From Streptomonospora alba (lineage in GTDB: Bacteria; Actinomycetota; Actinomycetes; Streptosporangiales; Streptosporangiaceae): a stretch of DNA of 64,000 nucleotides. A model generated the notes under the pieces. The model saw only the letters and a program-made list of their open reading frames with translations. It was not told where the DNA came from and ran no database searches. The stretch is taken from contig NZ_JROO01000033.1 of assembly GCF_000826685.1 (NCBI RefSeq), positions 1 through 64,000 of the forward strand, given 5' to 3'. Positions 3,978 through 53,425 of the stretch are shown here, in pieces. The stretch's first letter is position 1; every line of letters starts with the position of its first letter. A program made the position numbers and the translations under genes.

Positions 3978-4066
3978 CGTGACCTCTTCAGCGATCTCGG
4001 CCATGAGGGTGCCGCGTACCGCGGTCGCCCGTGGTCGAGACTGCTCGGCTCGGCCCCGGAGCGGCA

Positions 4067-6907: not shown

Positions 6908-7454
6908 CTGTACCCCCTACAAGTGAGAACTCGCAACTTCCTGCGAATACAGCGAGGCGGATCCCGGTTTTCCAAGATCAATTTCCTATGCCCACCGGGA
7001 AGCCGTCGCGGTTGCACGCCGACATTTTACACCTTTCCCGGATTATCGCCACACCTCTACGCGATTCCGACATAGCCAATCGAAGCGCCGCACAAGCGCA
7101 CGCACCCGGAAGAACGGAATCCGGCGGCAACCCCCGCGCGAACTGGGCGTCGCATTCCATCCGCATGATCAACTTATGCAGAATTTACGGCGAGCCCTTT
7201 CGAGGCCGGCCGCCGCTGCCGCGGGATGGGCGGGCCGGGCTGGGGGCCGCCCTGCGTATGGCCGCGATCGGCCAGGCTCCTCCCCGGCCTACGCGCCTCG
7301 CTCGGGCCATGCCCCCGAGAACCAGGAAAGGCCCTGCCGGCGAGCCGGCAGGGCCGATAAGAGGACGGCGATCGTCCCGATGTCCGCGATCCGGCGCGCC
7401 TCGCCCCCGGGGAGCACCCGGCGCACGGGGCCTCGGCAAGCGCCGGAAGTAGGA
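6908..7454. other. 547-bp intergenic region, regulator promoter side AT-richer
   Basis: No gene is supported here. The half next to the LAL regulator (about 6908-7180) is much more AT-rich than the window and should contain that gene's promoter. On the minus strand a TTGGAA and a TGTATT hexamer are separated by 18 bp, a weak promoter candidate. The half nearer wrbA is GC-rich and holds the wrbA terminator hairpin. Confidence 0.5.
7330..7355 (-). terminator. Rho-independent-like terminator of wrbA operon
   Basis: A perfect 11-bp inverted repeat (7330-7340 and 7345-7355) with a 4-nt loop lies about 100 bp downstream of the wrbA stop. In the minus-strand direction it is followed by TTTCCT, a short U-containing tail. 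Confidence 0.65.
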
Positions 7455-8060
7455 TCAGACCCTGCCGCGCACGAACTGGGCAGCGGTCTCGGCGACCCGG
7501 CGGCCCTGGAAGTTGGCCACAGCCAGCTCCTCCTTGCTGGGGTTCTTCTGCGCATGCGTGCTGCTCGCGCCGTAGGGGTTGCCGCCGCCGGCCGAAACCG
7601 CCTCGTCGGTGTAGCCCAGAGGGACGATGATGGACCCCCAGTGCATGAAGACGTGGTACATGCTGGTGATGGTCGTCTCCTGTCCCCCGTGCATCTCGTC
7701 CGCGCTGGTGAAGCCGCTGACGATCTTGTCGGCGAGCTTGCCCTCGAACCAGAGGCCGCCCGTGGTGTCCAGGAACTGCTTGAGCTGCGACGAGACGTTG
7801 CCGTAGCGGGTCGGAGTGCCGAACACGTAGGCGTCGGCCCACAGGAGGTCGTCCAGCGACGCCTCGGGGATGTCCTTGGTGGCCTGCTGGTTTTCGTACC
7901 AGTCGGGTTCTTCGTCGATCACGCTCTGGGGGGCGAGTTCCCCGGCACGCAGCAGGCGGACCTCGGCGCCCGCATCGGCGGCGCCGGCGTGGACCTCCTG
8001 GGCGAGCTGGTGCACGTGGCCGGTCGAGCTGTAGTAGATGACCGCGACCTTGGCTGACAT
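7455..8060 (-). CDS. wrbA: NAD(P)H:quinone oxidoreductase, WrbA type
   Basis: A 201-residue flavodoxin-fold protein of the WrbA (type IV NQO) family, which reduces quinones by two electrons to avoid semiquinone and superoxide formation. The FMN phosphate loop is in SSTGHVHQ near the N terminus. The conserved PTRYGNVSSQLKQF and GSIIVPLGY segments and the length match the family. The start at 8060 has GAGGAGG just upstream. It lies 39 bp after the DsbA/FrnE-like gene, and both probably share the promoter near 8880, which suggests a redox or electrophile stress role. Cytoplasmic. Confidence 0.92.
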   Translation of the reverse strand: MSAKVAVIYYSSTGHVHQLAQEVHAGAADAGAEVRLLRAGELAPQSVIDEEPDWYENQQATKDIPEASLDDLLWADAYVFGTPTRYGNVSSQLKQFLDTTGGLWFEGKLADKIVSGFTSADEMHGGQETTITSMYHVFMHWGSIIVPLGYTDEAVSAGGGNPYGASSTHAQKNPSKEELAVANFQGRRVAETAAQFVRGRV

Positions 8061-8099
8061 GGATGCCTCCTCGTCGTTTCTCTTTCGGTGCTGCAGGAG

Positions 8100-8780
8100 T
8101 CAGGGCAGGGCCCTGCGCAGGAGGTCGGCGTAGACGCTCGGGTCGTCCCGTTCGACCACGGGGAAACCGACGCCCTCCGCTCCCTCCCAGCTGAGCTGGA
8201 TGCCCGGGTTGTGCACCCAGGTGCCGTCGGGGAAGAAGAGCGTCGGGCTGCCCTGGACCGTGTCGCCGCTGCACAGGGACACCTGCTCTTCGATGTATGC
8301 GCGGGCCCGTCCTGCGACGAGCCCCTCGCGGATCGCCGCGGCGTCGAGGCCGCAGGACTCCGCGACGGCAAGCACCTCATGCCTCATGGAGATGTTGCGG
8401 CTCTGGCCGAACAGAGCCCGGCGCAGCGCCCGGTCGAAAGTGGCGCTGACCTCCAGCCCCTGCTCCTTGGCGATCTCGACCGCTTCCATGGCCAGGACCG
8501 TCGTCACGGGGTAGTCGTGCGGCGGCGCCTGCCACACCTGCCATCCGGCAGCGGGTTCCAGCCCGCCGGCGACGGGGATCTCCGCGTCGAGGATCAGCTT
8601 GGGCGTAGCCATGTCGTTGATCAGTTCCAGGGGGAACGGCCGGATGTCGAACCGGACCTGCTCGCTCAATCCGAGCGAGCAGCGGGCCGCGAAGAGCCGG
8701 TAGTGGGCCACATGCGCCCATGGACAGCCGATGTCGGCGTAGACGGCGATTGTTCCGGGGGCCACCTCGATCGCTGTCAT
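8100..8780 (-). CDS. DsbA/FrnE-family thioredoxin-fold oxidoreductase
   Basis: A 226-residue protein of the DsbA-like superfamily that includes FrnE and 2-hydroxychromene-2-carboxylate isomerase. After the first strand the active-site segment reads GCPWA (C19-P20-W21-A22), so the second cysteine of a CxxC disulfide motif is missing. It has no signal peptide and should be cytoplasmic. The helical insertion and the C-terminal substrate pocket TVQGSPTLFF with its cis-proline are present. Start ATG 8780 has GGGAAGGG upstream; the open frame extends further up without a ribosome binding site. With CxxA it may act as a glutathione-, mycothiol- or bacillithiol-type transferase or isomerase rather than a disulfide oxidase. 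It is followed closely by wrbA. Confidence 0.82.
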   Translation of the reverse strand: MTAIEVAPGTIAVYADIGCPWAHVAHYRLFAARCSLGLSEQVRFDIRPFPLELINDMATPKLILDAEIPVAGGLEPAAGWQVWQAPPHDYPVTTVLAMEAVEIAKEQGLEVSATFDRALRRALFGQSRNISMRHEVLAVAESCGLDAAAIREGLVAGRARAYIEEQVSLCSGDTVQGSPTLFFPDGTWVHNPGIQLSWEGAEGVGFPVVERDDPSVYADLLRRALP

Positions 8781-8866
8781 GATCCCTTCCCACTTCCCAG
8801 GAGACCGGCCAGCACCGGCGTGCGCGGCCAGACCGCCCACAGCCAGCGGCTTTCGCATACTCTTCG

Positions 8867-39360: not shown

Positions 39361-40998
39361 CTACTTCTCGAGGTTCGCGAAGGCGGGAACGCCGAACGGG
39401 GTGACCTCGACGTTGGTCATCTCCTCGGAGTAGCCCGTGATCGTCCGCGCCGTGTAGATCGGCAAGGCGGGCATGTCCTCGGCGAGGAGCCGCTCCCCTT
39501 CGCGGTACATCTCGATCGCCGCGTCCTCGTCGGACTCCTGGCGGGCGTCGGCCATCAGCTGGTCGAACTCCTCGTTGCTGTAGTCGCCGTCGTTCGAGGA
39601 GGCGCCGGTCTCGTACAGCGGGGAGAGGAAGTTCTCCAGGTGCGGGTAGTCCATCTGCCAGCCGGTGCGCAGCAGGCCGGTGTACTTGTCCTCGTTGATC
39701 CCGGCGCGGAACTCGCTGAAGGTCGGCACCGGCTTGGCGACGGCCTCCAGGTCGCCTTCGAACGTCTGGTTGATGCTGTTGACCACGGCCTGGACCCACT
39801 CGCGGTGGTCGGCGTCGTCGTTGAACCAGATCTGGACCTTCTCCGGCGGTTCGAACCCGTCGTCCAGGGCCTCCTGCAGCAGCTCGTCGGCCCGCTCGGG
39901 GGAGTACTCGCAGTACTCGCCGCAGGCACCCTTCTGCGCGCCGATGACGACGCTGGGAGCCCACCCCTTCGACGGCACCTGGGTGCCCTCGAAGATCTCC
40001 TCCACGATCGACTCGCGGTCGATCGCCGCGGAAAGCGCCTGGCGGAACCGGGCGTCGTCGTAGCCCTCCTCGTTGCCCGTGACGGTGAGGGTGAACATCA
40101 GGCCGGCTTCCTGCTCGACGTAGCGGTCGCCCAGGTCGTCCTTGTAGACCTCGTTGGCCATCGCGGCCGGGGTGAGGCGCGTCATGATGTCGAGGTTGCC
40201 GGCGAGCAGGTCGGCGTAGGCGGCTTCGCGGTCGTCGTACATCCGCCAGGTGACCGCGTCCACCTGAGCCGGGTGGGAACCGGCGAAGTCCTCATAGGCC
40301 TCGACCGTGATCTCCTGGTTGTCGGTCCAGGAGGCGAACTGGAACGGGCCGTTGCCGACCGGCTCGCGGCCGAACGCCTCGGGGTCCTCGAAGAAGACCT
40401 CCGGCAGCGGAGCGAAGGCGGTGTACCCGAGCTTCATCGGGAACTGCGCGTAGGGCTCGCTGAGGGTGACCTCGAAGGTGCGGTCGTCGACCACCTCGAG
40501 GCCGGACATCTTCTCGGCCTCGGGCTCGGGCGGGTCGGCTTCGGGATCCTCAGGCTCGGGGTGGACCTCTTCGTAGCCCTCGATCTGCTCGAACCAATAG
40601 GCGTTCAGGTTCGCATTCGGTCCGTAGGCGCCCCAGTTCCAGGCGTCCACGAAGCTCTGGGCCGTGACCTCGGTGCCGTCGTGGAAGGCCCATCCTTCCT
40701 GGACAGTGATGGTGAAGGTCTGATTGTCCTCGGTCTCGATGGACTCGGCGACGTAATTCTCGGGCTCGGCCGTCTCCGGGTCGTAGCGCACGAGTTTGGA
40801 GAAGAGCGTATCGAGCACGTCACCGCCGAATACCTCGTTGGTATTGGCGGGAATGAGCGGGTTTTCGGGCTGGCCGCCGTCGACGGTAACGGTCGTCTGA
40901 CCGCCGTCTTCGTCACCGCCGCCGCCGGAACAGGCGCTGATGGCCATGACCGCTGCCGCGGCCGCGGCCACCGCGGGGCGGAACCTGGTTGCTCGCAT
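39361..40998 (-). CDS. Peptide-type solute-binding lipoprotein (SBP_bac_5), second system
   Basis: A 545-residue binding protein. The signal peptide ends in AISAC (C23), a good lipobox, followed by a Gly/Asp linker. The family segments WAFHDGTEVTAQSFVDAWNWG and GNGPFQF are present. An unusual loop at about 143-163 is made mostly of Glu, Asp and Pro, and the whole mature protein is strongly acidic. ATG 40998 has GAGGAGG upstream at slightly long spacing. It heads the second Opp operon; ligand probably oligopeptides but not provable. Confidence 0.9.
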   Translation of the reverse strand: MRATRFRPAVAAAAAAVMAISACSGGGGDEDGGQTTVTVDGGQPENPLIPANTNEVFGGDVLDTLFSKLVRYDPETAEPENYVAESIETEDNQTFTITVQEGWAFHDGTEVTAQSFVDAWNWGAYGPNANLNAYWFEQIEGYEEVHPEPEDPEADPPEPEAEKMSGLEVVDDRTFEVTLSEPYAQFPMKLGYTAFAPLPEVFFEDPEAFGREPVGNGPFQFASWTDNQEITVEAYEDFAGSHPAQVDAVTWRMYDDREAAYADLLAGNLDIMTRLTPAAMANEVYKDDLGDRYVEQEAGLMFTLTVTGNEEGYDDARFRQALSAAIDRESIVEEIFEGTQVPSKGWAPSVVIGAQKGACGEYCEYSPERADELLQEALDDGFEPPEKVQIWFNDDADHREWVQAVVNSINQTFEGDLEAVAKPVPTFSEFRAGINEDKYTGLLRTGWQMDYPHLENFLSPLYETGASSNDGDYSNEEFDQLMADARQESDEDAAIEMYREGERLLAEDMPALPIYTARTITGYSEEMTNVEVTPFGVPAFANLEK

Positions 40999-41466
40999 AC
41001 TCGTGCGCCTCCTCTGGAACACCGGACGAACAGCGAAGAATAAGAATTCAACCTAAACCTGAATCCGTTTCACTTGAATTTCACATATGCACCACAGCGG
41101 TAACGTTCGCGTCACGCGATCGCATACCACGCGGGGGAACGGCACTCGAATGCGAGTGAAAGTCCGGAAGATTGGTATATACGTTCGAAGATTCGCGGAA
41201 AATCCCTGCACACGAATGTGCGATCGCACGACAGGCCCACTCCGCCCCCCGCGCCGTCGCCCTTCGCGCTCCCCGGCCCCGCCGGCAGCGGCGCGCCCGC
41301 GCCCGGCTCCCGCGCTGCGGGTCGCCGAGCGACGTGATCAGGTATGTTTCGCTGTGTCCGTGCGCGCAGGCGCCCGGAACCCGGCCGGACGCTGAAGGCC
41401 GGGCCGGTGACCGCCGGGCCGGGCTCCTACCGGCGCCGCCCCTTCTCGCAGGTGTAGGAAGATCGT
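40999..41466. other. 468-bp divergent promoter region, second Opp operon and LysR gene
   Basis: The left half (about 41030-41220) is AT-rich and must hold the promoter of the binding-protein gene. The right half is GC-rich with no supported gene. It contains three palindromes described separately. Confidence 0.5.
41143..41229. promoter_or_regulatory. Cluster of palindromes upstream of second Opp operon
   Basis: CACTCG-AATG-CGAGTG (41143-41158), GCACA-CGAA-TGTGC (41208-41221) and the perfect palindrome GTGCGATCGCAC (41218-41229) lie within 87 bp. The first two share a central CGAATG core about 65 bp apart. They are candidate operators for the divergent LysR protein or another regulator. Confidence 0.4.
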
Positions 41467-42390
41467 GTGGAGCGAAAGCATCTCGAGTACTTTCTCGCGG
41501 TCGCGAGCCACGGGAGTTTCACCAGCGCCGCAACCTCGCTGCACATCGCGCAGCCGTCGCTGTCCTATGCCATAGGCGTCCTGGAGCGCGAGGTGGGGGC
41601 GCCGCTGTTCCGCCGCGTCGGGCGGGGCGTGGTGATGACGCCCGTGGGCGAGGCCCTGCTGGACCCCGCCCGGCAGGTGCTGCACGACTTCATGCGGGTG
41701 CAGACCGCGGCTCAGCGGGTGTCCGGACTCGTGTCGGGACGCATCGACATCGCCGCGGTCACCACCTTGGCCGTGGACCCGCTCGCATCGCTGGTCGGAG
41801 CGTTCCGGAACCAGCACCCCGGAGTGGAGTTCCGCATCGTGGACGCGGAGAACGCCACGTCGATCGTCGACCTCGTCCGACGCGGGCAGTGCGAGGTAGG
41901 GCTCACCGAGTACGGCATCGCCACCGCAGGCATGCGGGTACTCGCCCTCCCCCAGCAGGAGGTCCTCGCCGTGCTTCCGCCCTCCACGGCCACGCCCGAT
42001 GAGCCGATCCCCCTGCAGAAGCTCGCGGAACTCGACCTCGTCACCACCCCGAGCGGCACCACGACCAGGAGCGCCCTCGACAGCGCGCTCGCCCTCACCG
42101 CGGCGTCGCCGCGGATCGCCGTCGAGACGACGCACCGCGCCGCGATCGTGCCCCTGGTGATCGCGGGCGCCGGTGCGACTCTGCTTCCGCACCGGCTCGC
42201 TCTGGAGGCGGCGGGGCTCGGGGCCGTGGTCGTCAGCGTCGCCCCGCCGCTGGCGCGCCGGGGCGTCCTCGTCTGGCCGCCGGATTCGCTCTCGCCCGCG
42301 GCCCAGGCGTTCGTCGATCTCGTCTCGACCCGCCACGCGGGCGACGATACGGACAGCCCCCGGCCGTTGGACGACGCCCGCCCCGGCTAG
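41467..42390 (+). CDS. LysR-family transcriptional regulator
   Basis: A 307-residue LysR regulator. The winged helix (about 1-60) includes MERKHLEYFLAVASHGSFTSAA and LHIAQPSLSYAIGVLEREVG, and the effector-binding domain follows. GTG 41467 gives the canonical N terminus, with AGGAAG upstream. It is divergent from the second Opp operon and convergent with FGE copy 2. It may control the Opp operon, although the gap of 468 bp is long. Confidence 0.88.
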   Translation: MERKHLEYFLAVASHGSFTSAATSLHIAQPSLSYAIGVLEREVGAPLFRRVGRGVVMTPVGEALLDPARQVLHDFMRVQTAAQRVSGLVSGRIDIAAVTTLAVDPLASLVGAFRNQHPGVEFRIVDAENATSIVDLVRRGQCEVGLTEYGIATAGMRVLALPQQEVLAVLPPSTATPDEPIPLQKLAELDLVTTPSGTTTRSALDSALALTAASPRIAVETTHRAAIVPLVIAGAGATLLPHRLALEAAGLGAVVVSVAPPLARRGVLVWPPDSLSPAAQAFVDLVSTRHAGDDTDSPRPLDDARPG

Positions 42391-42467: not shown

Positions 42468-43418
42468 CTAAGCCTCCCGCGCGCACCGGAAGCCGGTGTT
42501 GCCCAGGGAGGAGTCGGGGGAGATCCCCTGGCGCCCGCTGACCCGGTACCGGCGGCAGTAGGACTCGTGGCACAGGTAGGAGCCCCCGCGCGCGCTGCGT
42601 CTGGTGCCCTCGGCGGGCCCGCTCGGATCGCGCCGGGTGTCCGCGGCCGCGCCGTCCGGGGCGAACCGGTCGCGGCACCACTCCCACACGTTGCCGGTCG
42701 TGTTATACAGCCCGAACCCGTTGGCCGGGAACGCGTCGACCGGGCAGGTGCCGTACCAGCCGTCGGCGCGGGTGTTCTCCTGGGGGAACACCCCCTGCCA
42801 CACGTTCATCCGGTGCTCACCCGCGGGCTCCAGTTCGTCCCCCCAGGGGAAGGCGCACCCCCGCAGACCGCCCCGGGCGGCGTACTCCCACTCGGCCTCG
42901 GTGGGCAGCCGCAGTCCCGCCCAGGCGCAGTAGGCCTGGGCGTCGTTCCACGACACGTGGATCACCGGGTGGTCCGCGATGCCCTCGGTGTCGGACTGCG
43001 GACCGGCGGGGTGGCGCCAGTTCGCACCCTCGACCTGGCGCCACCAGGGCGTCCCGACCACTCCGCGGGTGGGCGGGAAGTCGTCGGGCAGCAGCCCCCC
43101 GAACACGAAGGACCACCCGAACCTCTCCGCCTCGGTGCGGTACCCCGTGGCGTGGGTGAAGGCGGCGAACTCCGCGTTGGTCACCGCCGTCGGACTGATC
43201 CAGAACGGGCTGAGCTCGACGGTGCGGACGGGCCCCTCGCCGTCGTCGGGATAGGCGCGGTCGTCCTCGCTGCCCATGAGGAACTCCCCGCCGTCGAGGA
43301 GCACCATGTCCTGGGTGCTGCCCGCGCCGCCGCCGGCCTCGGGCCCGTTCTCGGGAGAGGGGGCTGCGCCCCGCCGACCGCTCGACGGGGCGCAGCACGA
43401 TCCGTGCTCCTCACTCAT
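42468..43418 (-). CDS. Formylglycine-generating enzyme (SUMF1/FGE), copy 2, sulfatase-linked
   Basis: A 316-residue FGE that should convert the active-site cysteine of the adjacent sulfatase to formylglycine. The catalytic cysteines are C283 and C288 in GGSYLCHESYCRRYR; RLPTEAEWEYAARGG and YNTTGNVWEWCRDRF are conserved. The N terminus has SCCAPSS, similar to copy 1 but not a CxPxR. The start at 43418 overlaps the sulfatase stop by 8 bp; there is no good ribosome binding site, so translation is probably coupled. The same sulfatase-FGE order occurs as Rv0711-Rv0712 in Mycobacterium tuberculosis. Cytoplasmic. Confidence 0.92.
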   Translation of the reverse strand: MSEEHGSCCAPSSGRRGAAPSPENGPEAGGGAGSTQDMVLLDGGEFLMGSEDDRAYPDDGEGPVRTVELSPFWISPTAVTNAEFAAFTHATGYRTEAERFGWSFVFGGLLPDDFPPTRGVVGTPWWRQVEGANWRHPAGPQSDTEGIADHPVIHVSWNDAQAYCAWAGLRLPTEAEWEYAARGGLRGCAFPWGDELEPAGEHRMNVWQGVFPQENTRADGWYGTCPVDAFPANGFGLYNTTGNVWEWCRDRFAPDGAAADTRRDPSGPAEGTRRSARGGSYLCHESYCRRYRVSGRQGISPDSSLGNTGFRCAREA

Positions 43419-45771
43419 GTGCCGCTCGGAACTGCTCTCGCTGGACCTCGCTGTCGGAGTCGCTGCACAGGTCGTCGCCGAGGTCGACACGTACCCGGCG
43501 CAGCCGCCCCGTGAAGGCGTTGTCCGCCGTCGGGTAGTCGTCGGTCACCGGCGAAAGCCTGTCGACCCCGAGGTCGAAGGTCTCGTCGAAGGCGAAGTAG
43601 TAGGGGATGGTGGCGTCCACCCGGCCTTCGGCGACCTGCTTGCCGTCGACCAGCAGGGAGACGTCGCCGCCGCGGCCGACGCCCCCGCCGTCGTAGGAGA
43701 AGTCCACGCGGATCTCGTGCTCTCCGGGCGACAGCGGATCCTCGCCCGCGGCCGTGTGCACCTGCAGCCCGAAGTAGTTGTAGGCGTAGCGCGGGCGCCC
43801 CTCGTGGACGTACAGCGACCACCCGCCGAACCGGCCGCCCTGGGCCACCAGGACGCCCTCGGCCCCTTCTTCGGGGACCTCGACGCATGCGGTGACGGTG
43901 TGCGAGCGGTTCTTCACGTTCGGAGCGGTCTCCTCGGTGAGCCGCAGCCCGGGACCGTTGAACGTGACGCTCTTGCGGTCGCCGAACAGGTCGAGGCGCC
44001 CGGCCTCCCGCGGGTTCTCCCGCTCGGTCATCCGGTCGTCCAGCGGGAACACGTTGTACTTGGCCGCCTCGGTGAGGAACAGCTGCTTCAGCTGGTGCAG
44101 CTTGCCGGGGTGCTCGGCGGAGATGTCGCGCGCCTGGGTCCAGTCGACGTTGGTGTCGTAAAGTTCCCACACGTCGTCGTCGAAGTACCGGCGGCCGTTC
44201 TGCACCATCTCCCACGGCGTGCCGTGGCGGGTGACCGCCATCCAGCCGTCGTGGTAGATGCCGCGGTTGCCGACCATCTCGAAGTACTGCAGGCGACGGC
44301 GGTCGGCGGCGTCGGACTCGTTGAAGCTGTAGAGCATGCTGGTGCCCTCGACCGGCTGCTGGGCGATCCCGTCCACCGAGTCCGGCTCGGGCACCCCGGC
44401 GGCTTCGAGGATGGTCGGCAGCACGTCGATCACGTGGTGGAACTGGTGGCGCAGGCCGCCGCGTTCCCGGATCCCGTTGGGCCAGTGCGTGATCATGCCG
44501 TCACGCGTCCCCCCGAAGTGCGAGGCGACCTGCTTGGTCCACTGGTAGGGGGTGTTCATCGCCAGTGCCCAGCCCACCGGGTAGTGAGCGTGGGTCGTCT
44601 CGTCGCCGAGCGCCTCGTCGTGGGCGTTGATGAACTCGGCGCTGTCGGGGATGCCGCTGGCGTAGCGGTGCTCGTTGAGCGTGCCGCCCAGGCCGCCCTC
44701 GGCCGACGCGCCGTTGTCGCCCAGGATGTAGATGAACAGCGTGTCGTCGAGCTGGCCGTTCTCCTCCAGCGCGTCGACGAGGCGGCCGATCTGGGCGTCG
44801 GTGTGCTCGGCGAAGCCGGCGTAGAGCTCCATCAGCGAGGCGGCCGACCGCTTCTCGGCATCGGAGAGCTCGTCCCAGTGCGGCACCCCCTCGGCCCACG
44901 GCGCCAGTTCGGCGTCCTGCGGGACGACGCCGAGCTCCTTCTGCCGCTCCAGGGTGATCTCGCGCTGGCGGTCCCACCCGTGGTCGAACTTGCCGCGGTA
45001 CTTCTCCCGGTACTCCTTGGGCACGTGGTACGGCGCGTGCGTGGCGCCGAACGGGAGGTAGGCGAAGAACGGGATGTCGGGCTTGAGGCTCTGCTGCGTG
45101 CCGACCCATTCGATGGCCTGGTCGATCAGGTCCTCGGACAGGTGGTAGCCCTCTCGCGGCGTCTTCGAGGGCTCCGTGGGGACGGTGCCGTCGAACAGCG
45201 CCGGGTACCAGTGGTTCATCTCGGCGCACAGGAACCCGTAGAACTTCTCGAAGCCCTCACCGGTGGGCCAGCGGTCGAACGGGCCGGCCGGGCTCACGTC
45301 GCGCGCCGGGGTCTGGTGCCACTTGCCGAACGCCCCGGTGTTGTAGCCGTTGGCGCGGAGCGTCTCGGCGACGGTCGCGGCGCTGCGCGGGCGGATGCCG
45401 GAGTACCCCGGCGCCGCGCTGGACATCTCGGTGGTGACCCCCATCCCCACCGAGTGGTGGTTGCGCCCGGTCAGCAGCGACTGCCGGGTGGGCGAGCAGA
45501 CCGCGGTCACGTGGAACCGGGTGTAGCGCAGCCCGTCCCGGGCCAGCCGGTCGGCGGTGGGCATCTCGCACGGTCCGCCGAACGCGCTGGGGGCGCCGAA
45601 GCCCATGTCGTCCAGGAGCACCAGCACGACGTTGGGTGCGCCCTGCGGCGGCCGCAGCGGGTCGGCCGGCTGGTAAGGCGGGTCCTGCTCGCGCACGTCC
45701 ATCGACGTGGCCGGAGCGTGCCCCCGTTCCTCGATCGGCAGGTTGTACCGATTGGGGCCTGCGTCGCTCAC
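43411..45771 (-). CDS. Type I sulfatase (arylsulfatase AtsA-like, formylglycine-dependent)
   Basis: A 786-residue sulfatase with the formylglycine motif C92-S-P-T-R in VCSPTRQSLLTGR. Metal ligands are in VLLDDMGFG (D54, D55) and in LGDNGAS, and substrate-site Lys and His are in GKWHQ and GATHAPYH. A C-terminal beta-rich domain (about 600-770) follows the alkaline-phosphatase-like core. Length and order match M. tuberculosis AtsA (Rv0711). There is no signal peptide, so it works in the cytoplasm and its substrate must be imported. It follows the betaine/choline-type importer genes by 73 bp and overlaps the FGE gene. Known choline sulfatases are shorter (about 500 residues), so the substrate remains open. 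Confidence 0.92.
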   Translation of the reverse strand: MSDAGPNRYNLPIEERGHAPATSMDVREQDPPYQPADPLRPPQGAPNVVLVLLDDMGFGAPSAFGGPCEMPTADRLARDGLRYTRFHVTAVCSPTRQSLLTGRNHHSVGMGVTTEMSSAAPGYSGIRPRSAATVAETLRANGYNTGAFGKWHQTPARDVSPAGPFDRWPTGEGFEKFYGFLCAEMNHWYPALFDGTVPTEPSKTPREGYHLSEDLIDQAIEWVGTQQSLKPDIPFFAYLPFGATHAPYHVPKEYREKYRGKFDHGWDRQREITLERQKELGVVPQDAELAPWAEGVPHWDELSDAEKRSAASLMELYAGFAEHTDAQIGRLVDALEENGQLDDTLFIYILGDNGASAEGGLGGTLNEHRYASGIPDSAEFINAHDEALGDETTHAHYPVGWALAMNTPYQWTKQVASHFGGTRDGMITHWPNGIRERGGLRHQFHHVIDVLPTILEAAGVPEPDSVDGIAQQPVEGTSMLYSFNESDAADRRRLQYFEMVGNRGIYHDGWMAVTRHGTPWEMVQNGRRYFDDDVWELYDTNVDWTQARDISAEHPGKLHQLKQLFLTEAAKYNVFPLDDRMTERENPREAGRLDLFGDRKSVTFNGPGLRLTEETAPNVKNRSHTVTACVEVPEEGAEGVLVAQGGRFGGWSLYVHEGRPRYAYNYFGLQVHTAAGEDPLSPGEHEIRVDFSYDGGGVGRGGDVSLLVDGKQVAEGRVDATIPYYFAFDETFDLGVDRLSPVTDDYPTADNAFTGRLRRVRVDLGDDLCSDSDSEVQREQFRAAHE

Positions 45772-45844
45772 GGAGTTCTCCTCTCCCGTTCTGTAGGGGA
45801 TGCTGATATTTCCGGCGGGCCGTGGTTCGGCCCCCGTTCCGCGA

Positions 45845-46753
45845 TCACGCCGGTGCCGCTTCCGGCTCGTTCCGGCGGCCCTTGGACCGGACCAGAGCGA
45901 GCAGGGCGGCCGCCGGCCGCCGGCGTGCGCTCCCGCTGCGTCCCAAGGCTCCGGTCACCCTGTCGAGGAAGATCGCGAGGACGACGACGGCGATCCCGCC
46001 TTCGAAGGCCGTGCCGATGTTGAACTGGGTGACGCCGTTCACGACGACGCCGCCCAGGCCCTGGGCACCGACCAGCCCGGCGACGACGACCATCGACAGC
46101 GCGAGCATGATGACCTGGTTGACCCCGGCCATGATCGAGGGCAGGGCCAGCGGCAGCTGCACCTCGCGCAGCACCTGCCCGGGGCGCGACCCGAACGCGC
46201 GGGCGGCCTCCAGGACCTCCCCGTCGACCTGGCGGATTCCCAGTTCGGTGAGCCGGACCGCCGGCGGGATCGCGAACACGGTCGTGGCCGCGATGCCCGG
46301 AACCACCCCGATGCCGAACAGGAACACCGACGGCACCAGGTAGACGAAGACAGGAAGGGTCTGCATGAAGTCGAGGACCGGCCGCGCGACGAAGCTGACG
46401 CGCGCGCTGCTCGCGGCGAGGATGCCGGCCGGTACGCCCACCAGGATGGAGAAGGCGGCCGCGATGATCACCACCGCGAGCGTCTCCAGCGTCTGCGCCC
46501 ACAGATTCATGCTGACGACCAGGGCGAACGCGAGCACCGTGAACACGGTCAGGCCGATGCTGCGGGTCGCGACGATCATGAGGACGGCGAAGATCGCGAT
46601 CAGCACCGCCGGCAGGGGGGCGGAGAGCACGGTGTAGACCGTGTTCACCGTGAACAGCAGAACGGCGGAGACGGCGTCGAACACCCCTCCGGCGTTGTCG
46701 GTGAGCCACTGGAGACCGGATTCGACCGCGTCTCCGACGGGGATCCTAGCCAC
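45845..46753 (-). CDS. proW: Glycine betaine/choline-type ABC transporter permease
   Basis: A 302-residue permease of the ProW/OpuAB type with about six or seven membrane helices. The ABC-permease EAA loop is in LEAARAFGSRPGQVLREVQLPLALP, and QTLPVFVYLVPSVFLFGIG is characteristic of the family. I start at GTG 46753 with GAGGAGG upstream, overlapping the ATPase stop by 8 bp. It forms the membrane pore for the binding protein and ATPase encoded just upstream. The C-terminal tail is basic and poorly conserved. Confidence 0.9.
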   Translation of the reverse strand: MARIPVGDAVESGLQWLTDNAGGVFDAVSAVLLFTVNTVYTVLSAPLPAVLIAIFAVLMIVATRSIGLTVFTVLAFALVVSMNLWAQTLETLAVVIIAAAFSILVGVPAGILAASSARVSFVARPVLDFMQTLPVFVYLVPSVFLFGIGVVPGIAATTVFAIPPAVRLTELGIRQVDGEVLEAARAFGSRPGQVLREVQLPLALPSIMAGVNQVIMLALSMVVVAGLVGAQGLGGVVVNGVTQFNIGTAFEGGIAVVVLAIFLDRVTGALGRSGSARRRPAAALLALVRSKGRRNEPEAAPA

Positions 46754-47942
46754 GCTCGCCCACCTCCTCGGGCACCGAGGCGATCGCATTCATGACTCGG
46801 CTCCTGGGGAGGACGCCGACCAGGTGCTTTGCACCGTCGACGACCGCGAGCGGCGCCGCGTGCCCCCCGGTCAGGTGGCAGAACTCGACGACGGGGGTGT
46901 CGCCGGAGACCGCTGCGTAGTCGTCGTGGACGCAGGTGCCCAGGTCGGGCTTGTGCTCGTCCACCGCTCGCGCCAGGATCTCCGCGGTGGTGATCCCGGC
47001 GATCCTGCCTTCGGCGTCGGTGACGTAGGCGCACGCGCCGGGCCTCTTCTCCAGCCGGGCGAGCACGTCCGCGGGCCGCTCGTCGAGGGTGGCGGTGACC
47101 CAGGGATCCTGCATGACCGTGCTCGCCGTCAGGCCCCGCGTTCGGTCGACGTCGGAGACGAAGTCGCGGACGTAATCGGTCGCCGGCTGGGAGATGATCT
47201 CCGGTCCGGTGGCGAGCTGGATGGGCCTGCCGTCCTTCATCACCATGATCCGGTCGCCGATGCGCATGGCCTCGTTGAGGTCGTGGGTGACGAAGATGAT
47301 GGTCTTGCCCAGGTCCTGCTGGAGTTCGAGCAGCTGCTCCTGCATGGCGCGCCGGGTGAGGGGGTCGAGCGCGCTGAACGGCTCGTCCATGATCAGTACG
47401 TCGGGGTCGGTGGTGAGGGCGCGCGCGAGTCCCACGCGCTGCTTCATCCCGCCGCTGAACTCGTCGGGGTAGGAATCCCCGCGGTGGGCGAGTCCGACCT
47501 GGTCCAGCGCCTTGTCGGCGCGTTCGAGCCGCTCGCGCTTGGGCACGCCGCGGGCCTTGAGGCCATAGGCGGCGTTCTCCCTGACCGTGCGGTGGGGGAA
47601 CAGCGCGAAGTGCTGGAAGACCATGCTGATACGCCTGTTGCGCAACTCGCGCAGTTCCTGGCGCGCCATGCTGCCGACGTCGGCGCCTTCATAGGAGACG
47701 GTGCCCGCGGTCGGCTCCACGAGCCGGTTGATCATCCGGACGACCGTGGACTTGCCGGAGCCCGACAGGCCCATGACGGCGAAAAGCTCTCCGCGACCGA
47801 CGGAGAAGGAGACGTCGTCGACGGCGAGGACGCCGCCGGCGGCGCGTACCGCGCTCTCGCGGTCGCCTGCGGAGTCCAGGGCCCGGCGTGCGCGGGCCGG
47901 TGCGAGATCGAAGACCTTGGTGAGATTGCGGATTTCGATCAC
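46746..47942 (-). CDS. proV: Glycine betaine/choline-type ABC transporter ATPase with CBS domains
   Basis: A 398-residue ATPase of the ProV/OpuAA type. Walker A GLSGSGKS is at about 58-65, Q-loop VFQHFALFPHRTV, signature FSGGMKQR, Walker B VLIMDEPFSALD and H-loop FVTHDLNEAM follow. The C-terminal part (about 265-390) forms tandem CBS domains, which sense ionic strength or cyclic dinucleotides in OpuA systems. An extra segment of about 25 residues sits between the first strands of the ATPase core. GTG 47942 overlaps the binding-protein stop (GTGA) with GGAGG upstream. This CBS module suggests osmotic gating. Confidence 0.92.
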   Translation of the reverse strand: MIEIRNLTKVFDLAPARARRALDSAGDRESAVRAAGGVLAVDDVSFSVGRGELFAVMGLSGSGKSTVVRMINRLVEPTAGTVSYEGADVGSMARQELRELRNRRISMVFQHFALFPHRTVRENAAYGLKARGVPKRERLERADKALDQVGLAHRGDSYPDEFSGGMKQRVGLARALTTDPDVLIMDEPFSALDPLTRRAMQEQLLELQQDLGKTIIFVTHDLNEAMRIGDRIMVMKDGRPIQLATGPEIISQPATDYVRDFVSDVDRTRGLTASTVMQDPWVTATLDERPADVLARLEKRPGACAYVTDAEGRIAGITTAEILARAVDEHKPDLGTCVHDDYAAVSGDTPVVEFCHLTGGHAAPLAVVDGAKHLVGVLPRSRVMNAIASVPEEVGERG

Positions 47943-48898
47943 GCGGGGGCCTCCGCCGGTTCGCCCTCCACGGTCTCGACGCCCTTCAGCCACTTCCGGA
48001 CCTGGTCGGGGTTCTCCTCGATCCACGCGCCGGCGACGTCCGCGGCGGACTTGTCCTCCTGGCTCACGCTGTAGACCCAGTCGGACGCGGTCTCACGGTC
48101 GATCTTCATCTGGGAAAGGAAGCGCGCCACGTTCGGGTTCTCGTCCTGGAACCCCTTCCGGGTGGCGGTGCGGATCTCGCCGGCGCCCGGCCAGACGTCC
48201 TCGGGGTCGTCGAGGTAGACGAGGTCCCACTCGATGTTCATCCAGTGGGGTTCCCAGCCGAGGAAGACGACCGGCTGCTTCTGCTTGGCCCGCTTCTCGA
48301 CCTCGGCGAGCATCGCCGGGGTGCTCGACTCGACGAGCTTGAAGTCGCCGAGCCCGTAGGCGTCCTCGTCTATCGCCTTCTGGATGGAGTTGTTGCCGGG
48401 GGTGCCGGGCTCGATCCCCAGGATCTCGCTGTCGAACTCCTCGGCGTTGGCCTCCAGATCGGCCAGCGAGGCGACGTCGTACTCCTCGGCGACGTACTTC
48501 GGTACGGCCGGTTCGTAGGTGACCCCGGTGACAAGGGTGGACAGGACCTCGACATCGCCCTTGTCGATGGGGTCGGAGAACACCTCCTTCTGGCTGGGCC
48601 ACCAGTTGCCGAGGTAGGCGTCGGCGTCGCCCTTGGAGAGCGCCTGGGCGGTGAGGGGAACCGAGAGATCCTCGATCTCGATGTCGTAGCCGGCTTCCTT
48701 CAGGACCTGGCTGGCGATCTGGTTCTCGACCATGAGGTCTTCCCACGGCTGCTGGGCGAGGGTGACCGTGGTCTCGGCTCCGCCGCCGGAGCCGAATCCT
48801 CCCCCGGTGCCGCCGCCGGATCCGCCGCATGCGGCGACCATCAGGGAGCTGAGCGCGATAATCGACGCCGATGCGATACGACGCTGCATCGAATCCAT
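47939..48898 (-). CDS. proX: Glycine betaine/choline-type binding lipoprotein
   Basis: A 319-residue OpuAC/ProX-family binding protein. The lipobox MVAAC (C24) is followed by a Gly/Ser linker. Ligand-site tryptophans characteristic of quaternary-ammonium binding occur in YLGNWWPSQKEVF and FLGWEPHWMN. I start at ATG 48898, though GTG 48931 and ATG 48889 are also possible because no site has a strong ribosome binding sequence. It is the first gene of the five-gene importer-sulfatase-FGE operon and is divergent from the choline-oxidase-like gene. Confidence 0.9.
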   Translation of the reverse strand: MDSMQRRIASASIIALSSLMVAACGGSGGGTGGGFGSGGGAETTVTLAQQPWEDLMVENQIASQVLKEAGYDIEIEDLSVPLTAQALSKGDADAYLGNWWPSQKEVFSDPIDKGDVEVLSTLVTGVTYEPAVPKYVAEEYDVASLADLEANAEEFDSEILGIEPGTPGNNSIQKAIDEDAYGLGDFKLVESSTPAMLAEVEKRAKQKQPVVFLGWEPHWMNIEWDLVYLDDPEDVWPGAGEIRTATRKGFQDENPNVARFLSQMKIDRETASDWVYSVSQEDKSAADVAGAWIEENPDQVRKWLKGVETVEGEPAEAPA

Positions 48899-49137
48899 AT
48901 CTTTACATCCAATCCAGACGGAGAGAATCACGGCGGCGCGGAGCCTTCACGGCGCCCCCGCACGGCAAGCGCGTACACACTTCCCATTTCCACCTTCCTT
49001 TGCCCCACGAACACCGAGGGCGACCCCGCCGCTACCCGGCGGAGGTCGCGAAATTGACATTGAACGATCATGACGCAAATAGGGAGCGACATCAACATCT
49101 AACGCAATATAAAGGCATATCAATCTTTGGTTGTTCA

Positions 49138-49154
49138 TATAGAACGACTCTATA
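49138..49154. promoter_or_regulatory. Inverted repeat in AT-rich block, candidate operator
   Basis: TATAGA and TCTATA flank a 5-bp spacer (ACGAC), giving a 17-bp perfect inverted repeat inside the AT-rich block upstream of the importer operon. No adjacent regulator gene is available to assign to it. Confidence 0.45.
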
Positions 49155-49468
49155 GAAGAATGTAGAAAGTACACCGACAATTCGTCACCCCCCTTTCGGG
49201 GCGCTGACCTGCACCAAAGTACCCGGGACCGCCGCCGGGTGCGATTTTCCGGCCGCCTCGGCAGCGCCTGCGGGACCACCGGCCGCCCGCGCCCCACCAG
49301 CACCGACACGCTCTTGGGGGGGCTGCGGCAGGGCTGCACGCCCAGCGCGGCGGCACCCCTCAGGTTGCGGATCAGGAATTCGTGTGCAGAATAAGGAGAA
49401 CGTAACCCGGGAGCGGATGACCCTCACCACATGAGGAATCTCACCTCGAAACCCCCGGGGTCGAAGTA

Positions 49469-49502
49469 TTCGCCGCACCTATGAACATTCCGGTGCGGCG
49501 AA
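49469..49502 (+). other. Hairpin in the choline-oxidase gene leader
   Basis: An 11-bp perfect inverted repeat (49469-49479 and 49492-49502) has a 12-nt loop. It lies 120 bp before the GTG of the oxidase gene. It could be an attenuator, an mRNA stabiliser or an operator. An ATG (49481) lies in the loop. Confidence 0.45.
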
Positions 49503-49622
49503 CCGAGAAAGTGTGCGAGTCCGTTCGCCGACGCCTTTCGCAGGGTGCGTTGGGATCCGGCTCGGCGGAGCAGGCCGTACCCGGCGGTCCCGGTCGCGGC
49601 CCGAAGCAAAGGAGTTGTTCTG

Positions 49623-51179
49623 GTGTCCGCAAGCGACAGCGCCGCCGCCTACGACTACGTCATCGTCGGCGGCGGAACCGCGGGCTCGGTGCTGGCCAAC
49701 CGCCTCACCGAAGACCCCGCCACCAGCGTGTGCGTGATCGAGGCCGGCCCCTCCGACCACGACCAGGACCGCGTCCTGCGCCTGCGCGACTGGCTGGACC
49801 TGCTCGAAAGCGACCTCGACTACGCCTACCCCACCGTGGAACAGCCCCGCGGCAACTCCCACATCATCCACTCCCGCGCCCGTGTCCTGGGCGGCTGCTC
49901 CTCCCACAACACCCTCATCAGCTTCCGCCCCTTCCCCCAGGACCTCGCCGACTGGGAAGCCGCCGGCGCCCGCGGCTGGGACAACGCCACCGTGCAGTCC
50001 TACGCCGACCGCCTCAAGAACAACATCGCCCCCGTGGCCCCTCAAGACCGCAACCCCCTGGTTGCCGACTGGATCACCGCCTGCGCCCGCGCCACCGGCG
50101 CGCCCGTGGTGACCGACTTCAACGCCGAGACCTCCCACCGCGGCGGCTTCAGCGAGGGAGTGGGATTCCTCCCGCTTGCCTACGATCCCTACACCGGCCA
50201 CCGCTCCTCGGCCTCGGTGGCCTACCTCCACCCGATCATGGGCGTGCGCGACAACCTCACCCTGATGCTGGAGACCCGCGCCGAGCGGGTGCTGTTCGAG
50301 GGCGAGCGCGCCACCGGGGTGCAGGTCACCACCGCCCGCGGCGAGACGACCACGGTCACCGCCGAGCGCGAGGTCCTGCTGTGCGCCGGGGCGATCGACA
50401 CCCCGCGGCTTCTGATGCTCTCCGGGGTGGGCCCGGCCGGCGACCTGGCCTCGGCGGGCATCGGGGTCCACCACGACCTGGCCGGGGTGGGCGAGAACCT
50501 GTTGGACCACCCCGAGTCGATCATCATGTGGGAGACCGCCCGCGAGGTGCCCGAGACCACCGTGATGTACTCCGACGGCGGACTGTTCCTCCGCCGGGAC
50601 ACCGCCGATCCGCGCCCGGACCTGATGTTCCACATCTACCAGGTGCCCTTCGACGACAACACCGCCCGGCTGGGCTACGACTCGCCGGGCCCGCGCAACG
50701 CCATCTGCATGACGCCCAACATCCCGCGGTCGCGCTCGCGCGGGAAGATGTGGCTGGAAAGCCCCGACCCCCGGGTGAAGCCGGCGCTGGACTTCCGCTA
50801 CTTCACCGACGCCGAGGACTACGACGCCCGCACGATCGTGGACGGGTTGCGCATCGCCCGCGACATCGCCGCCACCGAGCCCTTCGCGTCCTGGATCGCG
50901 CGCGAGGTCGCGCCCGGGCCGGGGGTGAGCGGTGATGCGGAATTGTCGGAGTTCGGTCGCCGCGCGGCGCACACGGTGTATCACCCGGCGGGTACGTGCC
51001 GGATGGGTGATGAGGACGACGAGTGGGCCGTGGTCGATCCGGCGCTGCGGGTGCGGGGGCTGTCGGGGCTGCGGGTGGTGGACGCGTCGGTGTTTCCCAC
51101 GATGCCCTCGCCCAATCCGATGGTGACCGTGCTGACGGTGGGTGAGCGCGCCGCGGACCTGATCCGCGCCGACCGGTGA
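49623..51179 (+). CDS. GMC-family oxidoreductase, choline oxidase-like
   Basis: A 518-residue FAD enzyme that resembles Arthrobacter choline oxidase (CodA) along its length. The dinucleotide loop IVGGGTAGSVLANRL is at about 14-28. VLGGCSSHN places His95 at the position of the histidine that covalently binds FAD in choline oxidase. The active-site histidine is in HTVYHPAGTCRMG and the Asn in SPNPMVTV. A glutamate in IIMWETAR matches the trimethylammonium-binding Glu position. Choline oxidase performs both steps, choline to betaine aldehyde to glycine betaine, and no aldehyde dehydrogenase gene is present. GTG 49623 has AAGGAG upstream. It is divergent from the betaine/choline-type importer. 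BetA-like dehydrogenase is the alternative. Confidence 0.88.
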   Translation: MSASDSAAAYDYVIVGGGTAGSVLANRLTEDPATSVCVIEAGPSDHDQDRVLRLRDWLDLLESDLDYAYPTVEQPRGNSHIIHSRARVLGGCSSHNTLISFRPFPQDLADWEAAGARGWDNATVQSYADRLKNNIAPVAPQDRNPLVADWITACARATGAPVVTDFNAETSHRGGFSEGVGFLPLAYDPYTGHRSSASVAYLHPIMGVRDNLTLMLETRAERVLFEGERATGVQVTTARGETTTVTAEREVLLCAGAIDTPRLLMLSGVGPAGDLASAGIGVHHDLAGVGENLLDHPESIIMWETAREVPETTVMYSDGGLFLRRDTADPRPDLMFHIYQVPFDDNTARLGYDSPGPRNAICMTPNIPRSRSRGKMWLESPDPRVKPALDFRYFTDAEDYDARTIVDGLRIARDIAATEPFASWIAREVAPGPGVSGDAELSEFGRRAAHTVYHPAGTCRMGDEDDEWAVVDPALRVRGLSGLRVVDASVFPTMPSPNPMVTVLTVGERAADLIRADR

Positions 51180-51308: not shown

Positions 51309-51968
51309 CTACGGCCGCACCAGCCCGTGCTGATAGGCCCACACCACGGTCTGCACCCGGTCGCGGGCCCCGATCTTGGTCATGACCCGTCCGAGGTGCG
51401 ACTTGACCGTGCTCGTCTCGATGAACAACTCCCTGCCGATCTCGTCGTTGGACATGCCCTGGGCGAGCAGACGCGTGATCTCGGTCTCGCGTGCCGTGAG
51501 CAGATCGAGCGCCTGGGCGGCACCGTCCGGGTTCGCGGGTTTGCGGCGGGCGAACTCGGTCATCACACGCCGGGTCACGGCCTGGTCCACCAGCCCGTAG
51601 CCGTCGGCGAGCCGGCGCACGGCGTCGATCAGATCGTCGGGGTCGGTGTCCTTGAGGACGAACCCGCCGGCCCCGGCCTCCAGCGCACCGAAGACGTACT
51701 CGTCGAGGTCGAAGGTGGTGACGATCAGGATCTGGGGCGGGTCCGCCGTGCCGCCGGACAGGATCCGGCGGGTCGCCGACAGCCCGTCGCCGCGGGGCAT
51801 GCGCACGTCCATGCAGATGACGTCGGGTTCAAGGGACCCGGCGAGTTCCACCGCCGCGGGCCCGTCGCCGCACTCGCCGACGACCTCGATGTCCTCCACC
51901 ATGTCGAGGATGACGCGGAAGCCGGCTCTGACGACGGACTGGTCGTCCACGAGAAGCACCCTGATCAC
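51309..51968 (-). CDS. NarL/FixJ-type response regulator
   Basis: A 219-residue two-component regulator. The receiver domain has acidic residues in VLLVDDQ, phospho-acceptor D54 in ICMDVRMP and lysine in FVLKDT. The C-terminal LuxR-type helix-turn-helix includes LTARETEITRLLAQGMSNDEIG and TSTVKSHLGRVMTKIG. GTG 51968 overlaps the kinase stop (GTGA), with GAGGAGG upstream. It is the partner of the adjacent kinase. Targets are not known but may include the serine hydrolase gene of the same unit. Confidence 0.93.
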   Translation of the reverse strand: MIRVLLVDDQSVVRAGFRVILDMVEDIEVVGECGDGPAAVELAGSLEPDVICMDVRMPRGDGLSATRRILSGGTADPPQILIVTTFDLDEYVFGALEAGAGGFVLKDTDPDDLIDAVRRLADGYGLVDQAVTRRVMTEFARRKPANPDGAAQALDLLTARETEITRLLAQGMSNDEIGRELFIETSTVKSHLGRVMTKIGARDRVQTVVWAYQHGLVRP

Positions 51969-53425
51969 TGCGCCTCCTCCTCGTCTGCGGTCTCGGTGCG
52001 GCCTGCGGAGATCTCCCTGCTGACGGGCAGCTCCAGGCGGACCCGCCACCCGCCCGCCGAGGTCGGGCCGGCGTCCAGCTCGGCGCCGACGAGCTGGGCC
52101 CGCTCCCTCATACCGAGCAGGCCCAGCCCGCGCGGTGCGTCCGGCTTCGCGACCTCGGTCTCGCGGCCGCTCCCGTGAGCGTTCTCGACATCGAGGACGA
52201 CTCGCGTTTCGCGGTAGTGCAGCAGCAGGCGCACGGACGCGTCCGGCGCGTGCTCGCGAGCGTTGGACAGCGCCTCCTGCGCCACCCGGTAGACGGTGAC
52301 GTCGGCGACCGGCGGCAGGTCATAGGGGGCGCCCTCCCGCACCAGTTCGATCGAGCATCCCAGATCCCGCTCGGCCTGCACCAGGCGTTGGAGCGCGGCG
52401 GCCCGGGGTACGGGCGCCCCGCGCGCCCCCGGGTTCCCGGTGTGCGACAGCCCGTCCCCGGAGGAGGCGGGCTCCTCTCCGGGATCACGCAACGTCCCGA
52501 CGACCAGGCGCAGGCTGTCGAGCGTCTCCTTGCCCTGGGAACGCACCCAGGAGGTGGCTTCGCGAGCCGCCTGGTCGTCGTGGCCGATCAGCCGTTCGAC
52601 CGCCCCCGCCTGGACGACCATTCCGGAGAGGTGGTGGGCCGCGATGTCGTGCAGCTCGCGTGCCATGCGCGCCCGCTCGCCCATGATCGCGCCCTCGGTC
52701 CTCTCCCGCTGCCGCTGGACCACCTCGGCGGCGCGGATACGCGTCAGTTCGGCATAGCGCCGCCGGATCGCCATGAACGCTCCCACGAGCGCAGACCCTA
52801 CGTAGATGAGCAGTGCCGAGGTCAGCAGTCCGCCTCCCAGCCGCAGGTAGTCCTCCACACTCGCCGGAGGCAAGGGGCTGAAGGCATCCGGGGCCACGAC
52901 GAGGTCGGCCAACGTCCCCGTCACCAGTGTCCCGACGACCCCCTGAAGGACCAGGACGGCCGCAAGCGACCGCACCAGCCGGCGCGGCGGCAGCAGAGTG
53001 CCGCACGTGTAGGCGGCGATGAACGAGGCGAATCCTTGGGCCATCACGAACGGGGGCAGCAGGGCGGCGAGCCCCACTTGGGTGAGCGCCACCGCGAACA
53101 GGCACAGAGCCGGGTGTCTGCGCCGCACGCACAGAAGCAGGGACTGGGTGTACAGCAGGGCGGTGAGCGCGGCGACGGCGGTCGGGGAGAGCGTGAGACC
53201 GTCCTCCCTCGCCATGAAACCCACCAGGGACCAGGCCATGGCGGTGGAGAGGAGTACCACAGCCCCCGCCAGCAGGCAGTCGCGGGCGAAGGCGGAGCGC
53301 ATCCCCAGGCGGTTCAGCCCGTCGTCGAACCGCGTCTTCACGCGCAAGGCCGCGCTGTCCATCTCCGCCGGCCCCAGGGCGTCTCCGGCGTGCCCGCGGA
53401 GATCGTCGTCGGTCAAAGCGTCCAC
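51965..53425 (-). CDS. Sensor histidine kinase (HisKA_3/NarX-like)
   Basis: A 486-residue kinase with about six membrane helices (about 48-220) and no large external domain. The cytoplasmic part has phospho-acceptor His259 in ARELHDIAAHHLSGM, a HATPase domain with QEALSNAREHA, and RGLGLLGMRERAQLVGA near the end. GTG 53425 is preceded by GAGG. Such kinases without a large sensor domain often respond to membrane or cell-envelope stress. It lies 88 bp downstream of the serine hydrolase gene and overlaps the response regulator. Confidence 0.92.
   Translation of the reverse strand: MDALTDDDLRGHAGDALGPAEMDSAALRVKTRFDDGLNRLGMRSAFARDCLLAGAVVLLSTAMAWSLVGFMAREDGLTLSPTAVAALTALLYTQSLLLCVRRRHPALCLFAVALTQVGLAALLPPFVMAQGFASFIAAYTCGTLLPPRRLVRSLAAVLVLQGVVGTLVTGTLADLVVAPDAFSPLPPASVEDYLRLGGGLLTSALLIYVGSALVGAFMAIRRRYAELTRIRAAEVVQRQRERTEGAIMGERARMARELHDIAAHHLSGMVVQAGAVERLIGHDDQAAREATSWVRSQGKETLDSLRLVVGTLRDPGEEPASSGDGLSHTGNPGARGAPVPRAAALQRLVQAERDLGCSIELVREGAPYDLPPVADVTVYRVAQEALSNAREHAPDASVRLLLHYRETRVVLDVENAHGSGRETEVAKPDAPRGLGLLGMRERAQLVGAELDAGPTSAGGWRVRLELPVSREISAGRTETADEEEAQ

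Follow-up and report, generated by a model that had tools for sequence, protein, structure and literature searches.

A candidate choline-O-sulfate utilisation locus with an AtsA-type sulfatase in Streptomonospora alba and other actinomycetes

The first 64,000 nucleotides of contig NZ_JROO01000033.1 from the 5.9-Mb genome of Streptomonospora alba, here called the window, carry a gene cluster for an importer of the choline/betaine type, a formylglycine sulfatase, a formylglycine-generating enzyme (FGE), a choline-oxidase-like enzyme and a LysR-family regulator (Table 1). We consider it quite probable that this cluster is a choline-O-sulfate utilisation module, in which the ester would be imported and desulfated and the resulting choline oxidised to glycine betaine. 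The same route had been proposed from the letters of the window alone (the sequence-only reading); comparative genomics now supports it, the substrate being inferred in both cases. Choline-O-sulfate occurs as a solute in fungi and in salt- or drought-stressed plants (PMC9063841, PMC5066984), and its bacterial hydrolysis is credited to the sulfatase BetC in the literature cited here. The predicted pathway works like the BetC pathway, yet the sulfatase is not BetC. Beyond this single locus it appears likely that choline-O-sulfate hydrolysis originated a second time inside the AtsA (S1_4-like) branch, in an actinomycete clade comprising 59 or more sequences, that several quaternary-amine importers with binding proteins recognising the ester were recruited to it, and that many Streptomyces, Saccharopolyspora and Actinopolyspora genomes hold an unrecognised route to glycine betaine.

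Linkage of the sulfatase with quaternary-amine transporters

The linkage was examined in an even draw of 200 genomes from the whole order, for which the 5 or 10 best first-look candidates were scored per genome, so that misses are possible. Ten genomes hold the sulfatase at an identity of at least 81% (next best 65%), and the same ten hold the substrate-binding protein of the importer at 59% or more (next best 56%); among the best first-look candidates of the remaining 190 genomes neither protein was found at these identities. In all ten genomes, which bear six genus labels, the two genes lie within 2.3 kb of each other. The binding-protein gene directly adjoins the sulfatase gene in three of them (G048, G051 and G142; G and L numbers are our handles for genomes and loci), and the other seven have room for the ATPase and the permease. 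The sequence-only reading had left it to be checked whether relatives lack the co-location; it is present in them, and the interpretation survived. Seven other sulfatases of the draw, 54-65% identical, have no choline genes nearby and fall outside the clade described next.

For the phylogeny, the best 80 of 153 relatives from a scan of contigs of named genomes were kept, and 91 sulfatases were aligned, namely 78 of these 80, the window enzyme and 12 loci from the even draw. Two rows whose extended frames contained stops (L060, L071) were excluded from the alignment, two from the tree as the same places as L119 and L118 (L085 and L087, respectively), and L116, L117 and L120 were left out as apparent repeats of L009, L006 and L004; G162 also looks the same as L043, judged by coordinates. 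Of the 91 sulfatases, 59 form one clade with an SH-aLRT support of 100. The phrase "new combination" used in the sequence-only reading is an understatement: the cluster is real, and it is not a one-off locus but belongs to a conserved clade. The nearest named relative found is Streptomonospora sp. PA3 (L004) with a sulfatase identity of 89%. Eight residues (Q97, Q153, R157, E172, H187, W292, H368 and D424) occur in 59/59 clade members and all together in 0/32 others, a contrast that is largely built in because the eight were chosen, after the tree had been seen, from a longer list of positions separating 55 clade members from 25 others. The nearest outsiders (L106, L107, L109) carry three of the eight. 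Rows that were not used for deriving the signature obey the same split, with L113-L115 falling inside and L106-L112, like the plasmid sequences L124-L126, outside. Sequences of 50-60% identity located on plasmids were considered as clade members and rejected, given their incomplete signature and the lack of any listed choline gene around them in gene tables that are themselves incomplete; of 15 records listed (73 matched), three were inspected.

The neighbourhoods of the 59 clade members and the 32 others were compared up to a distance of 5 kb from the sulfatase, taken from one open frame to the next. A transporter gene of the OpuAC or BCCT family is found next to 37/59 clade members and 0/32 others (OpuAC, 31/59; BCCT, 6/59; neither in the others), a LysR gene next to 52/59 and 0/32, and an FGE gene next to 37/59 and 6/32, respectively. 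The full importer consisting of OpuAC protein, ATPase and permease accompanies 11 clade members. The search models derive from sequences of the same set and may therefore overlook remote homologues. A search of the 32 outside stretches with filters disabled and E values of up to 1 still produced no hit for OpuAC or BCCT, and no LysR or GMC hit came near threshold; ABC (ATP-binding cassette) ATPases of more than 100 bits are present in two of them (L111, L072). The available stretch is shorter than 5 kb on one side in 5/59 clade rows and 14/32 others, and the 18 others with a full stretch still show no OpuAC or BCCT gene. The transporters near the orthologous sulfatases are of three kinds: an OpuAC protein resembling ChoX, a second and distinct OpuAC protein found in Streptomyces, and a BCCT carrier. 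Three kinds of transporter and two kinds of choline-oxidising enzyme have become neighbours of one sulfatase clade, a statement that leaves the number of separate gains uncounted. That the genes of the window stand together merely by chance is practically negligible as an explanation: we found nothing in its favour, and it is rejected by the tight linkage in all ten genomes of the draw together with the transporter counts of 37/59 versus 0/32.

It is also very improbable that the importer carries just choline or betaine and that sulfatase and FGE hitch-hike in an osmoprotection island. The importer does resemble choline and betaine importers, and five genomes of the draw (L101-L105) have a related one, with a binding protein of 51-56% identity, and no sulfatase at E 1e-100. 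On the other side, the binding-protein gene immediately precedes the sulfatase gene, with no ATPase or permease gene between them, in eight loci (L007, L008, L009, L010, L033, L051, L113 and L115), where the binding proteins are perhaps orphan receptors sharing another ABC core. Moreover, in L101-L105 the importer and a LysR gene flank another large protein, as if the importer were matched to a releasing enzyme.

This protein of about 1000 residues (e.g. L101:5528-12846) stands between the LysR gene and the OpuAC importer, where such an enzyme could be expected. That of L101 scores 45 bits with DUF3604 (PF12228) by Pfam, and those of the other four loci are related to it. The release of choline from a different ester or conjugate is a conceivable role.

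The sulfatase and the formylglycine-generating enzyme

The window enzyme is a formylglycine sulfatase of the S1 type, as it carries the activation motif CSPTR and invariant catalytic residues. D54, D55, C92, R96, K150, H152, H245, D352, N353 and K413 are identical in all 30 aligned sequences, and we take them to correspond to the catalytic residues of the arylsulfatase AtsA from Pseudomonas aeruginosa (PAS). In a single-sequence search of the PDB, PAS chains supplied the five best matches (4cxk, E 4.5e-67; 1hdh, E 2.1e-66), and in a profile search they ranked second to sixth behind 7all, which is labelled as an arylsulfatase. The chain 1hdh is P. aeruginosa AtsA (PMC5066984). By these matches the enzyme is placed in the AtsA/PAS branch (SulfAtlas S1_4-like), closest to P. 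aeruginosa AtsA among solved structures, in line with the AtsA-type assignment of the sequence-only reading. Formylglycine mechanism and catalytic domain are shared with PAS over residues 45-562; the differences are about 220 additional C-terminal residues, compared with a PDB chain of 536 residues, and the clade-specific residues in the catalytic domain.

Membership in the BetC family was rejected because the enzyme fails both on the family model (TIGR03417, 45.1 bits against a cut-off of 433.45) and on the choline hairpin motif treated below. Its N-terminus lacks a hydrophobic segment: the maximum of a 15-residue Kyte-Doolittle window is -0.61 in the first 45 residues, compared with 2.08 in the lipoprotein of the importer, and the highest value ahead of the catalytic domain among the 59 clade sulfatases is 0.41. 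This agrees with the absence of a signal peptide stated earlier for this protein. The C-terminal segment CHESYCRRYR of the FGE contains the motif CHESYC with the catalytic cysteine pair, and the protein scores far under the cut-off of the NCBIfam models for EgtB, SenA and GldK.

That the substrate of the sulfatase is a different sulfate ester, with a cationic or aromatic organic part, and enters through the same OpuAC- or BCCT-type carriers while choline oxidation is a separate osmoprotective function of the neighbourhood, is in our view unlikely. It would agree with the position of the enzyme in a branch whose archetype is an arylsulfatase, with a clade signature that sets the sulfatase apart from its relatives without naming a ligand, and with choline oxidation genes that lie near part of the clade only. 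It is opposed by the three types of quaternary-amine transporter and two kinds of choline-oxidising enzyme near the clade, which are near none of the 32 relatives. Furthermore, choline-O-sulfate is to our knowledge the one abundant natural quaternary-ammonium sulfate ester.

A second sulfatase of the S. alba genome, a protein of 442 aa at L003:6579-9314 (G000:C47), was considered as choline sulfatase and rejected with 156 bits against the BetC cut-off of 433. It adjoins an MHS-type symporter that reaches 290 bits with the ProP model and 355 bits with the shikimate transporter model, both under cut-off.

The importer and its binding protein

All three parts of the importer belong to the families of the choline importer ChoXWV and all three miss the respective equivalog cut-offs (binding protein, 268.3 of 379.05 bits; permease, 311.6 of 363; ATPase, 339.3 of 483.75), the ATPase being above the cut-off of the proV subfamily (TIGR01186, 376.7 versus 326.6 bits, NCBIfam). 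The best PDB match of the binding protein is ChoX (2reg, E 2.2e-46). In the alignment, W63, D65, W110, Y139 and W226 take the places of W43, D45, W90, Y119 and W205 of ChoX. These five, one aspartate and four aromatic residues, are listed as holding the choline head group (PMC8371380); Y139 is replaced by F in L006. At the sites of ChoX N156-D157, which contact the hydroxyl end of choline, ChoX-like binding proteins linked to the sulfatase have T/S/A-P. The loss of this pair fits a different ligand tail without naming it, and the retained head-group residues together with the lost hydroxyl-end pair fit a choline ester, which is no proof. The lipoprotein is proposed as a choline-O-sulfate receptor. 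T177 of the window protein was dropped as a mark of sulfate-ester specificity because T is also present in three of five binding proteins unlinked to the sulfatase.

Choline-oxidising enzymes

The best PDB matches of the oxidase are choline oxidases (9ugm, 428 bits; 2jbv, 426 bits), and it is 45% identical to 2jbv over 506 aligned residues. Compared with CodA of Arthrobacter, nine of 11 checked active-site residues are identical (W61, H99, E312, H351, H466, N510, F357, V464 and Y465), and it differs by S101 to T and W331 to S. Of these positions, His466 is treated in PMC12839357, and Glu312 appears in a reference title of the same paper.

An oxidase of the window type is found near the sulfatase in six loci, four of one genus as well as L113 and L114. 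The GMC sequences near other clade members (L005, L029, L044 and L050) are BetA by score, differ from the window oxidase at seven or eight of the 11 positions, and lie, over the BetA cut-off, 1.1 to 7.9 kb from the sulfatase. Genes for proteins resembling betaine aldehyde dehydrogenase (BADH) are present in the stretches of 7/59 clade members and 0/32 others, three of the seven with low scores; the proteins of L005 and L029 reach 632 and 633 bits with TIGR01804 (cut-off 669), and that of L114 was assigned by the Pfam family Aldedh and an in-house model only. GMC and BADH-like genes occur together in four clade members. L114 has on one strand the order LysR, binding protein, ATPase, permease, sulfatase, FGE, BADH-like protein and oxidase, and in L113 permease, ATPase, oxidase and BADH-like genes are divergent from those for binding protein, sulfatase and FGE. 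In L005, BetA and a BADH-like protein are encoded beside LysR, binding protein, ATPase, permease and sulfatase, in L029 beside sulfatase and FGE.

The S. alba genome holds a second choline-oxidase-like gene of 77% identity (L121; G000:C64, about 2712-8828) beside BADH-like and BCCT-like genes, and it seems to possess a conventional choline route as well. A relative of 81% identity is accompanied by genes for an OpuAC importer and a BADH-like protein in a sister species (L122; G003) where the sulfatase was not found. BADH-like and choline-oxidase-like genes are neighbours in both, as in L113 and L114. Because these relatives sit with BADH-like, BCCT-like or OpuAC genes, the oxidase is tied to choline independently of the sulfatase.

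Proposed pathway and its weighing

In the proposed pathway, choline-O-sulfate would be taken up by the lipoprotein together with the ABC components (46-49 kb), and FGE would turn Cys92 of the sulfatase into formylglycine. The sulfatase could then cleave the ester in the cytoplasm by S-O hydrolysis into choline and sulfate, the latter being free for assimilation. Choline would be converted into glycine betaine by the choline-oxidase-like enzyme, either alone or together with a betaine aldehyde dehydrogenase. The flanking LysR regulator, which by conservation is taken to belong to the unit, probably senses choline-O-sulfate.

Several observations weigh against this pathway. The nearest characterised relative found, P. 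aeruginosa AtsA, showed no detectable choline-O-sulfate hydrolysis in a study that describes this activity as apparently confined to the BetC clade (PMC5870055). The choline hairpin of BetC, GW-X13-WYHN (PMC9063841), is absent from the window sulfatase, where no WYHN was seen by eye and NHWYP stands at residues 186-190. In the binding protein, N156-D157 of ChoX are not kept and are replaced by T177-P178. A GMC gene lies in the stretch of only 10/59 clade members (0/32 others), and related species in all these counts are not independent of each other. Furthermore, neither an OpuAC nor a BCCT gene lies within 5 kb of the sulfatase in 22/59 clade members, and a search of those 22 genomes with the window binding protein yielded nothing at E 1e-40; the same query and limit matched 33/200 genomes elsewhere, and no separate positive control was run. 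If the pathway holds, another importer must serve in these members. An MFS gene without OpuAC or BCCT gene is near the sulfatase in four clade members (L030, L035, L050 and L068), of the Sugar_tr/MFS_1 type in the two tested (L030 and L050) and with 172 bits to an aromatic acid/H+ symporter model in L030; it is possibly another importer for the same substrate.

The kind of benefit is the point at which a different view deserves most room. With the same chemistry, the module might serve the supply of sulfur, nitrogen and carbon more than osmoprotection, similar to BetC of Pseudomonas under the LysR regulator BetR; this we regard as possible, though not favoured. The LysR gene is the commonest neighbour counted, 49/59 clade members are without a GMC gene in the stretch, and Pseudomonas betC is LysR-controlled, induced by choline-O-sulfate and dispensable for osmoprotection (PMC12442346, PMC5870055). 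Against this view stand the oxidase or BetA genes that share the locus with a BADH-like gene in L005, L029, L113 and L114, and the relatives of the window oxidase that are encoded at other places in the genome in 20 of the 22 members lacking a linked transporter (best match 43-59% identity). In addition, several host names hint at a saline origin, which does not amount to a test.

Comparison with known systems

The proposed reaction is identical to that of BetC from Sinorhizobium meliloti (S1_12, betICBA), which is likewise of the formylglycine type in the alkaline phosphatase superfamily and feeds choline to BetA and BetB. The window sulfatase differs in its subfamily and its length, 786 residues compared with a model of 500 positions, and its operon differs from betICBA in having a dedicated ABC importer and an FGE as well as a LysR rather than a TetR-type regulator such as BetI. 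A choline sulfatase gene under LysR control is also known from Pseudomonas (BetR; PMC5870055, PMC12442346), where the sulfatase is of the BetC type. Other comparison papers are PMC12143400 and PMC4602150. In the literature searched, outside of which remained many subscription papers and all preprints, we found no description of an S1_4-type choline sulfatase or of this cluster.

BetC itself is rare among the hosts of the clade. Its cut-off is reached in none of six genomes of the genus and in two of 50 clade genomes, one of the two matches having an internal stop codon; the 50 are the 53 named clade loci minus L032, L033 and L049. In Haloactinopolyspora (L127), the match adjoins ABC genes of a different type; around the second match (L128), the scan showed none of the choline genes.

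If true, a second origin in another branch would be a natural experiment on how a formylglycine sulfatase gains an unactivated alkyl ester with a quaternary amine as substrate. The reading of many actinomycete genes as "arylsulfatase" would then need correcting, and choline sulfate would be indicated as a link from plants or fungi to the actinomycetes of the soil.

Organisation of the locus

The frames of all six genes named by the sequence-only reading are open and each matches its family; also its description of five overlapping or closely spaced minus-strand genes with a divergent oxidase gene proved correct. The likely starts of FGE, ATPase and oxidase were judged by eye. If the internal starts are used, the FGE gene overlaps the sulfatase stop by 8 bp and the ATPase gene overlaps the binding-protein stop by 4 bp. 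The likely oxidase start is a GTG preceded by AAGGAG. A scan of the divergent region for promoters and terminators found none.

Table 1. Genes of the candidate choline-O-sulfate locus in the window
Feature	Coordinates	Strand	Family matches and remarks
LysR-family regulator	41467..42390	+	PF03466/PF00126; convergent with the FGE gene; beyond the span of the sequence-only reading
FGE	42468..43490	-	PF03781, 275 bits; likely start 43418
Formylglycine sulfatase, predicted cytoplasmic, 786 aa	43411..45771	-	PF00884, 223 bits; CSPTR at residues 92-96
ABC permease, ChoW/ProW type	45845..46789	-	PF00528, 89 bits; TIGR03416, 311.6 bits (cut-off 363); ProW, 245 bits (cut-off 439)
ABC ATPase with CBS domain, ProV/ChoV type	46746..48026	-	PF00005 and CBS; TIGR01186, 376.7 bits; likely start 47942
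OpuAC-family substrate-binding lipoprotein	47939..48931	-	PF04069, 213 bits; lipobox VAAC
Choline-oxidase-like GMC flavoenzyme	49545..51179	+	both GMC domains; likely start 49623

On the far side of the LysR gene, an OppA-type (SBP_bac_5) binding protein is encoded at 39361-41022. At the other end, frames on the minus strand at 51309-53425, convergent with the oxidase gene, resemble by eye a response regulator and a histidine kinase.

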